Positions 47,493-54,076 of a stretch of DNA of 64,000 nt are shown in pieces (position 1 is the stretch's first letter; each line of letters opens with the position of its first letter). Both the position numbers and the translations under genes were made by a program. The notes beneath the pieces are model-generated. The model was not told the DNA's origin, made no database searches, and was given only the letters and a program-made list of their open reading frames with translations. This DNA comes from Thermodesulfovibrio sp. 3907-1M (GTDB lineage Bacteria; Nitrospirota; Thermodesulfovibrionia; Thermodesulfovibrionales; Thermodesulfovibrionaceae), in contig NZ_CP144373.1 of the NCBI RefSeq assembly GCF_040450955.1, positions 748,001 through 812,000 on the forward strand. Reading direction: 5' to 3'.

Positions 47493-47584
47493 TTTGTCCC
47501 CTCAGAATATCAGCATGTAAGCACTTACTAAGATAAAAGAAAAACAAGGATTTTGTCAATGATTTAAAATTTTATACAAACATC

Positions 47585-47621: not shown

Positions 47622-49202
47622 ATGCAATTTACTATTAAAAAGAAAATTTTTATTGGATTGGGAATTAGCGTTTCAATTGTAATAATTTTAAGTATTTTTG
47701 AATTTTTAAATTTTTCCAGAATAATACAAGAAATTCAACAATTGGAAGTATCTGATGTAATAAAAAGTAAATCTTTGCAGATAAGAAGACATGAAAAAAA
47801 CTTTTTTCTTTTCGGTTATAGAGAAGCTGATAAAGAAGTGAAAATACTATACAACTATCTTGATGAACTGGACGATATCGTAAACAAGAATCTTCCATAC
47901 GACAACTCAGGATATTTACATAATCTTAAAAATTTAATTGCTCATTACAGGCAAAAGTTCAATGAATTATTAATTTTGATCAACCAGATTAAAAAAGAAC
48001 TTGACAACAATAAGATATTTAAAAATAAAGAATTAATCCTTATAAACTCTGCACTGGTAGAAAATCCAAGTGCAGTAATAGATTTTCTAAAGCAATCCAG
48101 CACAGAAGACAATAAAAGGCTGATTGTTTTATTAAAAAAACTTGATAACAATATCCAGGAGCTCAGAAAAACGGGAGAAGAAATTGTAAATATATCAAGG
48201 AAAATTGATCAAAGTTCAAGGGACAATATTGAGACAGTAATGAAGCGATCATATGGAATGTTTTTTCTATTCCTTACATTATTTTTTTTAGGTGGTAATG
48301 GAATTTTCTGGATAGTGGGAAAAAATATCATAAAAAGATTAAATTTAGTAACTTCTGTGGTGGAAAAGGTTGGTGAGGGTAAATTTATTCAGATTTCTAA
48401 TGGTTCTAACAAAGATGAAATTGATTTACTTATCAGAAAAATCAATGAAATGGAAAACAAGCTTATACAAAGAAAAATAGAACTTGAAGAGAAAAACAAA
48501 CAACTTTTTCAATCAAAAAAACTTGCTGCAATTGGCACGCTTGCTACAGGAGTGGCTCATGAATTAAACAATCCTTTGAACAATATTTATATTTCAGTAC
48601 AAATTTTGCAAAAAGAGTTAAAAGAACCTTCTCCATTTATTAATGAGATTTTAAATGATATATCCCATGAAACCGCACGAGTAAAAAGAATTATAGAAGA
48701 TTTACTTGAATTTGCAAGAGGTAAAGAGCCAGTTTTTAAAAAGGTAAAAATAAAAGATGTTATTTCAAAAGCCTCTAATTCAATAATCAAACAGAGAAAC
48801 TTTAAAAATATAGATTTAAAAGAGATTCCAGAAGAAATTGTAATCAATGCTGACCCGGATCAGCTGGAAAGGGTATTTTTTAATCTTTTTGATAATGCAA
48901 TAGATGCAATGCATGAGGACGGACAGATAAAATTAAAATTTTTAGAGAAAAACGACTTTGTGGAAATCTCTGTATCAGATACAGGAATCGGAATTCCTGC
49001 CGATAAACTGGAAAAGATATTTGAACCTTTTTTTACTACAAAGAATAGAGGAACAGGGCTCGGTCTTGCAATAGTTTATAACATTATTCAAAAGCACAAT
49101 GGTAAAATATTTGTAGAAAGTACAGAAGGCAAAGGAACAACCTTTAGAATTTTATTGCCGGGAACATCTTATGAATTTCAAAATTCTTGTAGCAGAAGAT
49201 GA
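47622..49202 (+). CDS. Membrane sensor histidine kinase
   Basis: This 526-residue protein has a first membrane helix (about 9-29), then a helical external domain with [19 protein letters not shown] like those of ligand-binding four-helix sensors. A second membrane helix lies near 208-228, followed by HAMP, then HisKA with His313 in [12 protein letters not shown], and HATPase_c with DTGIGIP and GTGLGLAI. The sensor ligand is unknown. It overlaps the next gene, an NtrC-type regulator, by 32 bases and is its cognate partner by position. Confidence 0.93.
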
Positions 49203-50508
49203 AGAAATCACATTAAAACATCTTGTATACGCTCTTAAGGCAGAAGGATATGAAGTAGAAGGAGTTACCAACGGACTTGAAGCTCTCAGAATGCTTGAAA
49301 AAGACAAATTTGATGTTCTCATAACAGATATTAAAATGCCTGAGATTGACGGGATTCAACTTCTTGAAATAGCCAAGAAAAAAGAGCCAGATATTGAAAT
49401 TGTTATAATTACAGGTTTTGGAAGCATTGCCTCAGCAGTTGAAGCCATGAAAAAAGGAGCATATGATTATATTACAAAACCCTTTGATCTGGATGAATTA
49501 ATTCTCAAAATTTCCAAGATTAAGGAAAAAAAAATTCTTGAAAGACAAAATGTAGCATTAAAAACATTTCTTGAAATAAACAAAAAAACCTCTTTCATTG
49601 GTAAAAGCGAAAGCATGAAAAATATTCTAAATATTATTGAACAGATAAAAAACTCAGATTGCAATGTTCTTCTCACAGGAGAAAGTGGAGTCGGTAAAAG
49701 TTTCATAGCAAAACTTATTCACTATACAAGTAAAAGAAAAGATATGCCTTTTTTATCCATCAACTGTGCTACTTTAACAGAAGAGTTACTCAGCAGCGAG
49801 CTTTTTGGTCATGAGAAAGGAGCATTCACAGGAGCAATAAAACAGAAACAGGGATTAATAGAGGTAGCTGACGGAGGCAGTCTTTTTCTGGATGAGATTG
49901 CTGAAATGAGCCCCAATCTCCAGGCAAAGCTTCTTAGAGTTATAGAAGAAGGAGAATTTTTCAGAGTTGGAGGCACAAAACCCATAAAGGTTAATGTAAG
50001 ATTTATCGCAGCAACGAATCAGGATGTAAAAAAAGCCATACAGGAGAAAAGATTCCGTGAAGACCTTTATTATCGTCTTAATGTGATGGAAATCTATATA
50101 CCACCTTTAAGAGAAAGAAAAGAAGACATTGAGCCGTTAAGCAAATTCTTTTTACAAAAACATCTACCAAAATACAACAAAAAAATCAAAGGATTTACAA
50201 AAGAAGCAATGGATATTCTGATACATTACAGTTTTCCAGGCAATGTAAGAGAACTTGAAAACATAATTGAAAGAGCCATAATACTTGAAAAAACTCAATA
50301 CATTACCGTAGAAAGTCTCCCTCCTACTCTTTCACTGTTTAAAATAGAAACAATACAGCATGGTAATATAAAGACTATAGATGAATTAAATAAAGAATAT
50401 GCAGAAAAAATTTTAGAAATTACAGGAGGAAATAAAACTAAAACTGCAGAACTTCTTGGCATCTCACGAACAAGTTTGTGGAGAATACTGAAATCGGATA
50501 ATAAATAA
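49171..50508 (+). CDS. Sigma-54-dependent response regulator, NtrC type
   Basis: In this 445-residue protein the receiver domain has Asp53 in ITDIKMPEIDG. The AAA+ domain has Walker A GESGVGKS (from residue 170), GAFTGA (217-222, the contact with sigma-54) and FLDEIAEM. The C-terminal Fis-type helix-turn-helix reads NKTKTAELLGISRTSLWRIL. It activates sigma-54 promoters after phosphorylation. A sigma-54 promoter lies just after its stop and drives the next operon, so a local circuit is likely. The start overlaps the kinase gene. Confidence 0.94.
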   Translation: MNFKILVAEDEEITLKHLVYALKAEGYEVEGVTNGLEALRMLEKDKFDVLITDIKMPEIDGIQLLEIAKKKEPDIEIVIITGFGSIASAVEAMKKGAYDYITKPFDLDELILKISKIKEKKILERQNVALKTFLEINKKTSFIGKSESMKNILNIIEQIKNSDCNVLLTGESGVGKSFIAKLIHYTSKRKDMPFLSINCATLTEELLSSELFGHEKGAFTGAIKQKQGLIEVADGGSLFLDEIAEMSPNLQAKLLRVIEEGEFFRVGGTKPIKVNVRFIAATNQDVKKAIQEKRFREDLYYRLNVMEIYIPPLRERKEDIEPLSKFFLQKHLPKYNKKIKGFTKEAMDILIHYSFPGNVRELENIIERAIILEKTQYITVESLPPTLSLFKIETIQHGNIKTIDELNKEYAEKILEITGGNKTKTAELLGISRTSLWRILKSDNK

Positions 50509-50520
50509 ATTGTTCATCAT

Positions 50521-50537
50521 TGTTTCAAAATAAAACA
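50521..50537. promoter_or_regulatory. Candidate upstream activator site for the NtrC-type regulator
   Basis: An inverted repeat, TGTTT, seven bases, AAACA, lies about 65-80 bases before the sigma-54 promoter, a usual place for an enhancer-binding site. It could bind the regulator encoded just upstream, but the arms are short and AT-rich. Confidence 0.35.
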
Positions 50538-50589
50538 GTATCTATAACTCCCTTCTTTTAAAAATTAAATAATATCAAAAAAATCCAAG

Positions 50590-50605
50590 TGGCACAATTT
50601 TTGTT
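50590..50605 (+). promoter_or_regulatory. Sigma-54 promoter of the stress and permease operon
   Basis: TGGCAC, five bases, TTGTT matches the -24/-12 consensus (TGGCAC-N5-TTGCA) except for one base in the second element. The predicted start is near 50614, only about 15 bases before the first ATG of the operon, which has no obvious Shine-Dalgarno sequence. The regulator gene just upstream encodes the required activator type. Confidence 0.75.
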
Positions 50606-50628
50606 TTTCTAAATATCCAGAAAATAAA

Positions 50629-51093
50629 ATGAACAAAAAACATCTTTTGCTAACAGCATTGTGGGGAGAAAGACTGGATGAAATCTTTCAGTACACTAAA
50701 GAACTGGCAAAAATTATGAATAAGGACATAACTATGCTGTTAATCCATCCTAAAAAAAGAAAATTTGAAGATTTAATGACTGCAGTTACATTTGCAGAAG
50801 CGAGTGAATCAAATACTGCAGTGGAGTTGCTGCAAACGAACCAGAATGAAATAATTCAAAAGAATCTCAAAGACTTAAAAGAAAAATACAACCAGTCAGG
50901 AATTAAGGTTGATATAGTTTACACAGAAAATACAGTCTACAACGCAATTGATAACTTTTTAAGAAAAAACGAGCATATTGAAATGGTACTGCTGAGTCCA
51001 GAAATTACTGTAAATAGCGAACTATCAGCAAGAAAATTGAAAAATCTTATAAAACATGCTTGTTGTCCGATTGTAACAATGACAAAGAAATAA
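50629..51093 (+). CDS. UspA-like protein without ATP motif
   Basis: This 154-residue protein has a universal stress protein fold: a beta-alpha start MNKKHLLLTALWG, a helix-rich middle and a final strand, CCPIVTMTKK. The usual GxxG-N9-GS ATP-binding motif is missing; the position reads LSPEITVNSELSARK. It is therefore probably a non-ATP-binding USP. It is the first gene of the sigma-54 operon, and the next gene's SD lies directly after its stop. Confidence 0.7.
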   Translation: MNKKHLLLTALWGERLDEIFQYTKELAKIMNKDITMLLIHPKKRKFEDLMTAVTFAEASESNTAVELLQTNQNEIIQKNLKDLKEKYNQSGIKVDIVYTENTVYNAIDNFLRKNEHIEMVLLSPEITVNSELSARKLKNLIKHACCPIVTMTKK

Positions 51094-51107
51094 AAAGAGG
51101 AGGAGAT

Positions 51108-52022
51108 ATGTATATTTACTTACCTGTAGCATTAACGAGTATTAATGTATTTTTGCCTGTATGTCTCGGATTGGCTGTTGGATTACTTTCAGGATTGTTT
51201 GGTGTAGGAGGAGGCTGGCTTATGACACCTCTTTTGATGATGTTAGGAATTCAACCTGCCGTAGCAGCAGCAACTGACGCAGCTCAAATTGTAGGAGCAT
51301 CCACTTCAGGAACATATGCTCACTGGAGGCTGGGGAATGTTGATTTTAAAATGGGATTTCATCTATTAATTGGAGGATTCCTTGGTGGATTAACAGGTGT
51401 AGAAATAATTAAAATTCTTAGGGTAATCGGAAATGTAAACTTTTTAATTAAGATTACTTATGTAATAATGCTTGGTGTAATAGGGACTTTCATGTTTATA
51501 GAAAGCCTTAGTAAACTCAAAAATAAAACCGTTGAAAAAAAAGATAAGAAAGAGTCAGGTATTACAAAATTTTTCAAATCTCTTCCCTTTCAAATTCATT
51601 ATAAGAAATCAGGTGTTACCCATTCCATATTAGTAACCGCTACAGTTGGGTATATTGTGGGAATTCTTGCAGCAATAATGGGCGTTGGAGGAGGATTTTT
51701 AATGGTACCAGTGATGTTTTATCTCCTTAAAATGCCCATGAACATTGTTATAGGAACGAGTCTTTTTCAGATTTTTTTTACATGCGTTGAGGTAACATTT
51801 CTTCAAGCATACATAAATCATACAGTGGATATTTTACTTGCCATACTCCTTTTGATTGGTTCAAGCTTTGGAGCCCAGATCGGTGCAATTATAGGAAAGA
51901 AAATAAAGGGTGAACAATTAAGAATTCTGATGGCGATCCTTGTATTAATGGTTACAGTAAAAATAATTATTGAATTAATTACAGCACCATCAATTTTATT
52001 ATCACCTGCAGGAGGGCATTAA
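51108..52022 (+). CDS. TauE/SafE family permease
   Basis: This 304-residue inner-membrane protein has about eight helices in two homologous halves. Each half contains the glycine-rich motif GVGGGWLMTPLLMMLGIQP or GVGGGFLMVPVMFYLLKMP, the hallmark of TauE/SafE. The family exports small anions such as sulfite, sulfoacetate or organic acids. GGAGGAG precedes the ATG at 51108. The next gene, of the TIGR02186 family, commonly accompanies this permease, so the two may form one transporter. Confidence 0.88.
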   Translation: MYIYLPVALTSINVFLPVCLGLAVGLLSGLFGVGGGWLMTPLLMMLGIQPAVAAATDAAQIVGASTSGTYAHWRLGNVDFKMGFHLLIGGFLGGLTGVEIIKILRVIGNVNFLIKITYVIMLGVIGTFMFIESLSKLKNKTVEKKDKKESGITKFFKSLPFQIHYKKSGVTHSILVTATVGYIVGILAAIMGVGGGFLMVPVMFYLLKMPMNIVIGTSLFQIFFTCVEVTFLQAYINHTVDILLAILLLIGSSFGAQIGAIIGKKIKGEQLRILMAILVLMVTVKIIIELITAPSILLSPAGGH

Positions 52023-52023
52023 A

Positions 52024-52788
52024 ATGAAAAAATTAATGATTTTTTTTGCCTTAATTTTTTTAATTGTAATATCAAACAATGCATGGGCTAAAATTTCAGT
52101 GATTGCAAATCACGATCATATTACTATTGATTTGTTTTATCATGGTTCTACAGTAAGTGTGAAAGGGCAAGCTCAACCTGGCTCAGATATTGTTGTTAAA
52201 ATAACATCTCCTGATGGATCGCAGGTGTTAAGAAAAAAAGGGAAAGTTCTTGATCTTGTATGGATGAGCGTGGAAAATCTTCAATTTGACAATGTTCCAA
52301 ATCTTTATATATTAAGAAGCACGAAAGAATTAAAAGACATCTTGAAAGAACAGGAAGCAGTTAAAAATAAAATAGGTTACTCAGCACTTAAAAACTTTGC
52401 ACAGATTACTCCAGTTTCAAATGAAAATGAAAAAGAAGAATTGTGGAATGAATTTATTAAATTCAAAGAAAAGTCAAAGTTATATAATGTGAAAGCGGAT
52501 ATTGCAAAAAGCGAGGAAAACGGACAGACTCATTATTATACTTTGATTCAGTGGCCCTATCAGGCTCCGCCTGGCATATACAATGTTACTGCTTATGAAA
52601 TAAAAGATGGAAAAGTTATTGATACTGCTCAAACCCAGATTAATGTAGAAAAAGTTGGAATATTAAAAATGCTTTCAAATATGGCAAAAAATAACTCGCT
52701 GTTTTATGGAATTGTTTGTATATTAATTGCAATACTGGCTGGTTTTTCAGTAGGTGTACTGTTTAAGAAAGCTGGAAAAGCTCATTAA
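52024..52788 (+). CDS. TIGR02186-family membrane-anchored periplasmic protein
   Basis: This 254-residue protein has a signal peptide (ending NAWA), then a periplasmic domain starting with ISVIANHDHITIDLFYHGST, which resembles the family. A membrane helix lies near the C-terminus (about 229-248) with a short cytoplasmic tail. It lies one base after the permease gene. The family is of unknown function and typically sits beside TauE/SafE genes. The external domain would be placed to bind the exported or imported anion. Confidence 0.75.
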   Translation: MKKLMIFFALIFLIVISNNAWAKISVIANHDHITIDLFYHGSTVSVKGQAQPGSDIVVKITSPDGSQVLRKKGKVLDLVWMSVENLQFDNVPNLYILRSTKELKDILKEQEAVKNKIGYSALKNFAQITPVSNENEKEELWNEFIKFKEKSKLYNVKADIAKSEENGQTHYYTLIQWPYQAPPGIYNVTAYEIKDGKVIDTAQTQINVEKVGILKMLSNMAKNNSLFYGIVCILIAILAGFSVGVLFKKAGKAH

Positions 52789-52805
52789 TTTAAGGAGGCA
52801 AATTA

Positions 52806-53663
52806 ATGTATAGCAATATTTTAGTAGCCTTTGATGGTTCAGATTTCAGCAAAGCTGCTTTGTTTGAAGCTATCAGATGGGTAAAAAATCATGGTGGTCA
52901 CATAATAATGGTTCATGCAGTATATTTTGACGAAGAAGAATTCATTATAAGTCCTGAACAGAGGGAACAAAGATTAATGCTGGGTAAACAGGTTTGTTAT
53001 CAGATGACACAGGAAGTTTCAGAGAAGTATAACATACAAGCAGAACTTATAATATGTGAAGGAGATGCTCCTGATGTAATTTTACAAGTAGCAGAAGACA
53101 AAAAAGCAGATTTAATAATTATGGGAACTTATGGTAAAAAAGGACTCAAGAAGCTTATCTTAGGTAGCACTACCTATAAAGTTATTGTTGAGTCCCCTGT
53201 AGATGTAATGGCGGTAAAAAAGACTTCTACATCTGATGAATTGAGTTATAGATCAATTCTTGTTGCCTTTGACGAATCTGAATACAGTAAAAAGGCTCTT
53301 CAAAGGGCGTGTGAACTTGCAAAAATAGAGAATGCTACAATTTCTGTAATTTATGTAATTCCAAAATACCAGGAAATGGTTGAGTTTTTCAGTACCGAAT
53401 CTATAAAACATGCTTTAATGGATGAGGCAAAAAAAATTCTTTCAGAAGCTGAGCAAATTGCTTCAAAATTTAATGTTCCTGTAAAAAAGATTGTTCATGA
53501 AGGTTCTATATCGGAAAAAATCGTTCAAATAGCTAATTTAATGCTTTGCGATTTAATCATTATGGGAACATATGGATGGAAAGGTGTTGACAAGGCAATC
53601 ATGGGTAGCAATGTAGAAAGAGTTATTATTAATTCATCTGTACCTGTAATAATTGTAAAATGA
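52806..53663 (+). CDS. Tandem universal stress protein, two ATP-binding domains
   Basis: This 285-residue protein has two USP domains in tandem (about 1-140 and 147-285). Both keep the ATP motif: GTYGKKGLKKLILGS in the first and GTYGWKGVDKAIMGSN in the second. Such proteins form nucleotide-binding dimers within one chain. GGAGG precedes the ATG. It overlaps the following single-domain USP by four bases. Confidence 0.9.
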   Translation: MYSNILVAFDGSDFSKAALFEAIRWVKNHGGHIIMVHAVYFDEEEFIISPEQREQRLMLGKQVCYQMTQEVSEKYNIQAELIICEGDAPDVILQVAEDKKADLIIMGTYGKKGLKKLILGSTTYKVIVESPVDVMAVKKTSTSDELSYRSILVAFDESEYSKKALQRACELAKIENATISVIYVIPKYQEMVEFFSTESIKHALMDEAKKILSEAEQIASKFNVPVKKIVHEGSISEKIVQIANLMLCDLIIMGTYGWKGVDKAIMGSNVERVIINSSVPVIIVK

Positions 53664-54076
53664 AAGGTTACAGAAAACTATTAATTGCAGTAAATGGTTC
53701 AAATGATGTTTTAAAATACGGAATAAAACTGGCAAAAGACGAAGGATGCTGGGTAACTATTTTAAAAATAATTCCACCATATGATGGAGATTTACATCTA
53801 ACGGGAATTAAAAATGTTTCCGATGTAATAAACAGCAATGTAAAGATTTTTTTTAATGAAGTAAAAGATGTTGCTGAATCTGAAAGAGCTTTAGTGAAAA
53901 TAAAAGTGCAAGAAGGTGATATTGAGGAAAAGATTCTGGAAGCTGCAGTTGAGGAAAATGTTGATTTAATAATTCTACAAGCAGAAAAAACCAATCCAAT
54001 TAAAAAGTTTTTTGGTAAAGACCTGATAAGTAAAATTATAAATCAAGCACCCTGTCCTGTTCTTGTTGTGAGGTAA
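53660..54076 (+). CDS. UspA-like protein without ATP motif
   Basis: This 138-residue single USP domain (YRKLLIAVNGSNDVLKYGIK at the start, CPVLVVR at the end) is the last gene of the operon. The nucleotide-binding glycines are missing; the region reads QAEKTNPIKKFFGKDLISK. It is probably a non-ATP-binding partner of the tandem protein. Its stop lies nine bases from the end of nuoN on the opposite strand, and no hairpin terminator is visible between them. Confidence 0.75.
   Translation: MKGYRKLLIAVNGSNDVLKYGIKLAKDEGCWVTILKIIPPYDGDLHLTGIKNVSDVINSNVKIFFNEVKDVAESERALVKIKVQEGDIEEKILEAAVEENVDLIILQAEKTNPIKKFFGKDLISKIINQAPCPVLVVR

Follow-up and report, generated by a model that had tools for sequence, protein, structure and literature searches.

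A seven-gene unit in the genome of the sulfate-reducer-type bacterium Thermodesulfovibrio sp. 3907-1M (Nitrospirota) is probably an inducible anion-stress operon under its own two-component sigma-54 switch, a variant of the kind represented by DVU0539–DVU0545 and DVU3298–DVU3305 in Desulfovibrio vulgaris. The unit lies in a 64,000-nucleotide (nt) stretch of contig NZ_CP144373.1 (positions 748,001 to 812,000), hereafter the window, within a single-contig genome of 1.94 Mb. In order, the genes encode a histidine kinase (HK), an NtrC-type response regulator (RR) of the enhancer-binding protein (EBP) class, usp1, a TauE permease, a PF09608 protein, uspT, and usp3, where usp denotes universal stress protein (USP). 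An initial annotation, made from the sequence alone, had described a kinase and a GAFTGA-bearing regulator followed by TGGCAC-N5-TTGTT and five tightly packed genes, and every element was found where it had been claimed (Table 1). The HK and RR genes overlap by 32 nt, usp1 starts 120 nt past the end of the RR gene, and the intergenic gaps of the five-gene operon run from -34 to +17 nt. The value of -34 holds only with a TauE start at TTG 51060; the likely start is ATG 51108, behind GAGGAG.

The predicted regulatory circuit is strongly supported by comparative evidence. TGGCAC-AATTT-TTGTT is the sole exact match to TGGCACN5TTGYW in the window, and genome-wide the pattern TGGCAYN5TTGYW gives 25 matches versus 2 for the reversed control. 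The host genome has a single rpoN and 13 strong sigma-54-activator matches. With a threshold of at least 11.5 of 14.5, 72% of the 57 regions upstream of usp1 contain a -24/-12 match, against 0.7% of shuffles and 0% of reverse strands; the rate upstream of other genes was 1–9% (1/7 for usp3). The promoter is thus kept among relatives, with the consensus YTGGCAY-N5-WTGCT.

A palindrome, CYGTTCAWATTYKAAACRC, accompanies this promoter as a predicted upstream activating sequence (UAS). It was found in 52 of the 57 upstream regions at 17.6–30 bits (top shuffle 12.6), a count that is descriptive because the position weight matrix was trained on these same regions; the matrix was needed because simple perfect-palindrome counting overlooked most copies. 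Independent support for the predicted UAS comes from spacing and covariation. Proximal copies lie 46–51 nt ahead of the promoter, with a second copy further up in many loci, and in operons that begin with a usp3-like gene (L121, L126), the UAS and promoter precede that gene. None of 24 other sigma-54-like sites of the host genome has a palindrome above 9 bits within 260 nt; the earlier description of the circuit as self-contained therefore fits the host genome.

Does the regulator match its putative operator? In RRs adjoining usp1, either R or K follows SRTSLW in the helix-turn-helix (HTH). A GAAAC half-site at a spacing of 49–51 nt accompanies the R-type residue in 13 of 13 loci scored, and YAAAC or TGAAC at 46–48 nt accompanies the K-type residue in 16 of 16 (Fisher p 1.5e-8, phylogeny not removed). 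On a tree of TauE plus PF09608 proteins, five changes are inferred for the HTH residue and five for the half-site. Block replacement of the HK-RR-promoter segment could also give this covariation; the apparent tie between regulator and operator stands regardless. The RR of the window is R-type, and its proximal site reads TGAAAC on the minus strand at a spacing of 50 nt, below the score for inclusion in the covariation table.

The initial annotation had made its proposal depend on conservation of the gene order in Nitrospirota genomes, and the order does recur across the phylum. PF09608 is present in 91 of 396 Nitrospirota genomes. Among 81 PF09608 loci (80 fetched, plus the window), the gene called directly before PF09608 is TauE in 76; usp1 is called upstream in 57 and uspT downstream in 59. 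The complete seven-gene order is found in 22 of the 81, many contigs being cut (59/81 have room for it). PF09608 matches in one named collection come chiefly from metagenome-assembled genomes of Nitrospirota, together with records bearing the labels Syntrophaceae, Deltaproteobacteria, and Actinomycetes; for those of the last label, a binning error is possible. The full order also occurs in one Desulfobacterota-type genome (L320), of the same phylum as the Syntrophaceae record, and a wide search of such genomes found few true usp1 relatives (G401, G402, G545). In two congeners (G166, G194), the RND membrane-fusion gene directly adjoins nuoN; this clean empty site means that exactly the seven-gene block is absent. 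Families are mixed on the TauE plus PF09608 tree, with the window on a long branch, and such a tree does not separate gain from loss of the module.

Is this a new kind of system? Because it recurs across the phylum and resembles Desulfovibrio modules, the unit is better regarded as a conserved variant. In D. vulgaris, nine sigma-54 operons contain TSUP or PSE transporters whose substrates are not assigned (PMC4641369). DVU0539–DVU0545 shares with the window an HK and an NtrC-type EBP, as well as the kind of sigma-54 operon, encoding two USPs, an anion exporter, and a small membrane protein (PMC3333781, PMC10102598). However, its carrier is of the PSE family (TC 2.A.98) and not TSUP, no TIGR02186 protein is described, and the arrangement is divergent. 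DVU3298–DVU3305 likewise combines an HK and EBP with a sigma-54 operon for a putative anion transporter and UspA proteins (PMC3333781), but has a Lon-protease response regulator, of which there is none at the window locus. Both likenesses are drawn from published descriptions; what the window has in common with them is an HK and EBP beside a sigma-54 operon in which USPs are combined with an anion carrier. In E. coli, DVU0539 was shown to activate pDVU0542 (PMC3333781). DVU0540 and DVU0542 are needed in molybdate and the DVU3299 transporter in chlorate (PMC10102598), so that a Nitrospirota-wide module is linked to Desulfovibrio phenotypes.

An orthologue of the DVU3298–DVU3305 EBP has been reported in Thermodesulfovibrio yellowstonii (PMC3333781). 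The host of the window has a second sigma-54 cluster, at 889–901 kb and just beyond (L353; G000:C1:886000-905000), which encodes a USP with the FAEAGE hairpin described below, two TSUPs, USPs, an RR-Lon protein, an HK, an EBP, and a CitMHS carrier. This cluster matches the published description of DVU3298–DVU3305 (PMC3333781), whereas the window locus does not have that architecture. Among the top proteins found only in thiosulfate disproportionation in Desulfolithobacter are a response regulator and two USPs whose locus tags are neighbours (GF1_10730, GF1_10760, GF1_10800; PMC9751629); they are a possible physiological lead for related modules.

TauE and TIGR02186 genes are also found alone, on alphaproteobacterial plasmids of Ruegeria, Sinorhizobium, Sphingomonas, and Salipiger. 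As in the window, the two genes are adjacent (touching or overlapping) and in the same order, but no HK/EBP or USP gene surrounds them in the four regions read. One of the four has a gene for an ATP-binding protein downstream of the pair, and the Salipiger pair is near a sulfatase and tripartite carriers. The sulfite exporter TauE of Cupriavidus necator is assigned to the same family as the window permease, TauE/SafE (PF01925), and no such regulatory or USP context is described for it (PMC10413263). In the literature searched, there was no mention of TIGR02186 or PF09608, and no paper joined TauE, universal stress protein, and Nitrospir*. The exact combination had been thought undescribed: this stands for the TauE-TIGR02186 version in that literature but not for the kind, which is described in D. 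vulgaris (PMC3333781, PMC4641369, PMC10102598).

Which proteins does the unit encode? Pfam matches were obtained for all seven gene products but usp1. The permease scores 166 bits against PF01925 (TSUP, or TauE/SafE; gathering cut-off 32.6). Its neighbour had been labelled TIGR02186; membership of PF09608 (Alph_Pro_TM) holds at 172.5 bits (gathering cut-off 24.5), but the TIGR02186 equivalog assignment does not, the score of 111.2 bits falling below the NCBIfam cut-off of 255.25. The predicted structure of this protein gave no Foldseek match at E<0.001. The best VIA Z was 7.6, and no function was taken from the fold because the match is a common immunoglobulin (Ig)-like arrangement only. UspT and usp3 both match PF00582, and the G2xG9xG(S/T) ATP motif occurs twice in uspT and not at all in usp1. 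The initial label of usp1 as USP-like is upheld by the predicted fold, which matches UspA structures, but by neither family matches nor the ATP motif. No Pfam family (PF00582 included) was matched at E 0.001, nor any NCBIfam model; the AlphaFold2 model (pLDDT 78.5) has USPs as its best Foldseek matches (E 3.5e-6, TM-score about 0.5–0.6). PDB sequence searches with TauE, usp1, and the PF09608 protein returned nothing usable. The kinase sensor is an uncharacterised helical periplasmic domain, with weak matches to 4HB_MCP_1 in 6 of 20 kinases (best E 0.011).

A working model of the unit can be outlined. The membrane kinase would sense a periplasmic or membrane signal and phosphorylate the adjoining NtrC-type regulator. 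The covariation supports binding of this regulator to the palindrome that lies about 50 nt ahead of the -24/-12 site, from where it would switch on the RpoN promoter, a predicted promoter that conservation places before usp1-TauE-TIGR02186-uspT-usp3. An oxyanion or another small anion may then be transported, with export the likeliest direction, by the TSUP permease together with the membrane-anchored, Ig-like protein that almost always accompanies it; the USPs (one ATP-binding tandem protein and two non-ATP proteins) might assist the carrier or the stress response as regulators or chaperones. The unit would serve oxyanion or small-anion transport under stress. The export of sulfite or organic anions and the redox sensing proposed initially are suggested by analogy only, as sequence does not reveal in which direction a TSUP carrier works or what it moves. 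Most USPs and TSUP carriers, widespread as they are, have no assigned role, and signal and substrate become open to test in a compact operon whose promoter is conserved and whose regulator covaries with its predicted operator.

Several observations weigh against this model, and three other explanations have to be considered. It is very improbable that the -24/-12 match is fortuitous and that the operon is transcribed by read-through from the RR gene or from a sigma-70-type promoter. Such an origin would suit the short 120-nt gap in the window and the -12 element, which reads TTGT and not TTGC; however, promoter and UAS are co-conserved at fixed spacing phylum-wide, whereas the flanking gap varies from ~90 to 760 nt. 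The TTGT form is also common among sigma-54-like sites of the host genome. Further difficulties for the anion-stress circuit are the degenerate proximal UAS of the window, which scores 0 bits on the plus strand and 11 bits on the minus strand, and the scarcity of the module in the host genus, where PF09608 is present in 2 of 11 listed genomes and most congeners have no module. The carrier raises another: the combination of usp1, UAS, and promoter also stands ahead of SulP in L219 and of CitMHS in L231, so the substrate of the carrier need not be the inducing signal. In a sister type (L224, L225, L230; L233 is cut), usp1 is accompanied by an 85-residue protein, a second TSUP, and a USP.

These exchanges of carrier would be expected of a general stress operon led by its USPs, in which the carrier is an accessory that can be swapped for others and no particular anion is sensed. 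The response of DVU3298–DVU3305 to high pH, heat, and stationary phase (PMC3333781) points the same way. This alternative is nevertheless rather unlikely, given that no gene adjoins PF09608 as regularly as TauE (76/81) and that the exchangeable carriers seen all belong to anion-carrier families. The same circuit might instead serve uptake, with the TSUP-TIGR02186 pair importing an anion (a carboxylate, sulfate, sulfite, or thiosulfate) while the USPs couple uptake to the energy state. Sulfate reducers have many TSUP proteins without an assigned role (PMC5840216), and a tauE homologue of Archaeoglobus, itself a TSUP protein, has been proposed as a sulfite importer (PMC3949148), which also tells against an outward direction. 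Moreover, DVU0539 further targets lactate genes (PMC3333781), and PEP-synthase-like genes flank the module in several relatives. Uptake is still unlikely: the fitness data of similar modules concern toxic oxyanions (chlorate, molybdate), and export is the activity described for the characterised TauE/SafE members (PMC10413263). The inducible anion-stress operon remains the preferred reading.

A separate feature of usp1 is a hairpin of ~28 residues, TPR-like and here named FAEAGE (FEDLMTAVTFAEASESNTAVELL). No Pfam or NCBIfam model fits it, the nearest being a sub-threshold TPR_4, and FAEAGE strings had no occurrence in the literature searched. A hidden Markov model (HMM) of the element matches proteins of 50–80 residues, the C-termini of CheY-like regulators, the N-termini or interiors of USPs, and membrane proteins of ~115 residues; it also finds FAEAGE as an insertion in phosphoenolpyruvate (PEP)-synthase-like proteins that is missing from their relatives. 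The element is present in 127 of 396 Nitrospirota genomes, and loci beyond the window include L353, L310, L315, L308, L317, L064, and L082. A genome-wide search of 16 genomes gave 50 matches, of which 45 lie in loci with a TSUP or CitMHS carrier and HK/RR genes (hand tally); three, all in G456, are in an HK/EBP locus with no recognised carrier, and two are outside the loci read. It is possible, although doubtful, that FAEAGE is an unrecognised transplantable docking element that assembles the products of anion-carrier clusters into one physical signalling complex. Single TPR-like hairpins would then dock USPs, CheY-like regulators, small proteins, membrane proteins, and PEP-synthase-like enzymes. 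A docking role would explain the connection of USPs to transporters and response regulators. PEP-synthase-like (PPDK_N) genes recur beside the module in relatives (L064, L082, L086, L072, L188), and only some of them have the FAEAGE insertion.

Table 1. Features of the seven-gene unit and its control region, in window coordinates.
Feature	Position	Strand	Basis or description
Sensor histidine kinase	47622..49202	+	Periplasmic helical sensor, conserved LQLRRHEKN motif, weak HAMP, HisKA, HATPase
NtrC-type response regulator (EBP)	49171..50508	+	Response_reg, Sigma54_activat, and HTH_8, with GAFTGA; Fis-type HTH, R-type (SRTSLWR)
Distal copy of predicted upstream activating palindrome, CTGTTTAAAATAGAAACAA	50335..50353	+	17.6 bits; within 3' end of RR gene
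Proximal predicted upstream activating palindrome, CTGTTTTATTTTGAAACAA	50520..50538	-	11.0 bits; 50 nt ahead of promoter 17-mer
Sigma-54 -24/-12 promoter, TGGCAC-AATTT-TTGTT	50590..50605	+	Pattern match
usp1, first gene of the operon	50629..51093	+	Predicted USP fold, without ATP motif
FAEAGE hairpin in usp1, residues 44-71	50758..50841	+	HMM of the element
TSUP (TauE/SafE) permease	51108..52022	+	Pfam
PF09608 / TIGR02186-like protein	52024..52788	+	Signal-like N-terminus, Ig-like sandwich with helical insertion, C-terminal transmembrane helix
uspT, tandem USP	52806..53663	+	PF00582; two ATP-binding-type motifs
usp3, USP without ATP motif	53660..54076	+	PF00582

Co-occurrence with dsrA was considered as evidence for sulfite and was not used, because the pattern follows class-level phylogeny: the dsrA cut-off is exceeded by ~83/91 PF09608 carriers versus ~90/305 non-carriers (hand tally). 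The dsrA of the host itself (G000:C1:1668102-1670344; L358–L361) matches as three pieces in different frames, while that of the congeners is intact, and the match after the pieces has two internal TAA codons. This broken region appears to reflect sequencing errors or a decaying gene. Ahead of the module, agcatgtaagcacttacta lies upstream of the RND membrane-fusion gene (window 47500-47540) and is kept in congeners (L240, L247); it is perhaps the operator of an efflux-operon repressor.

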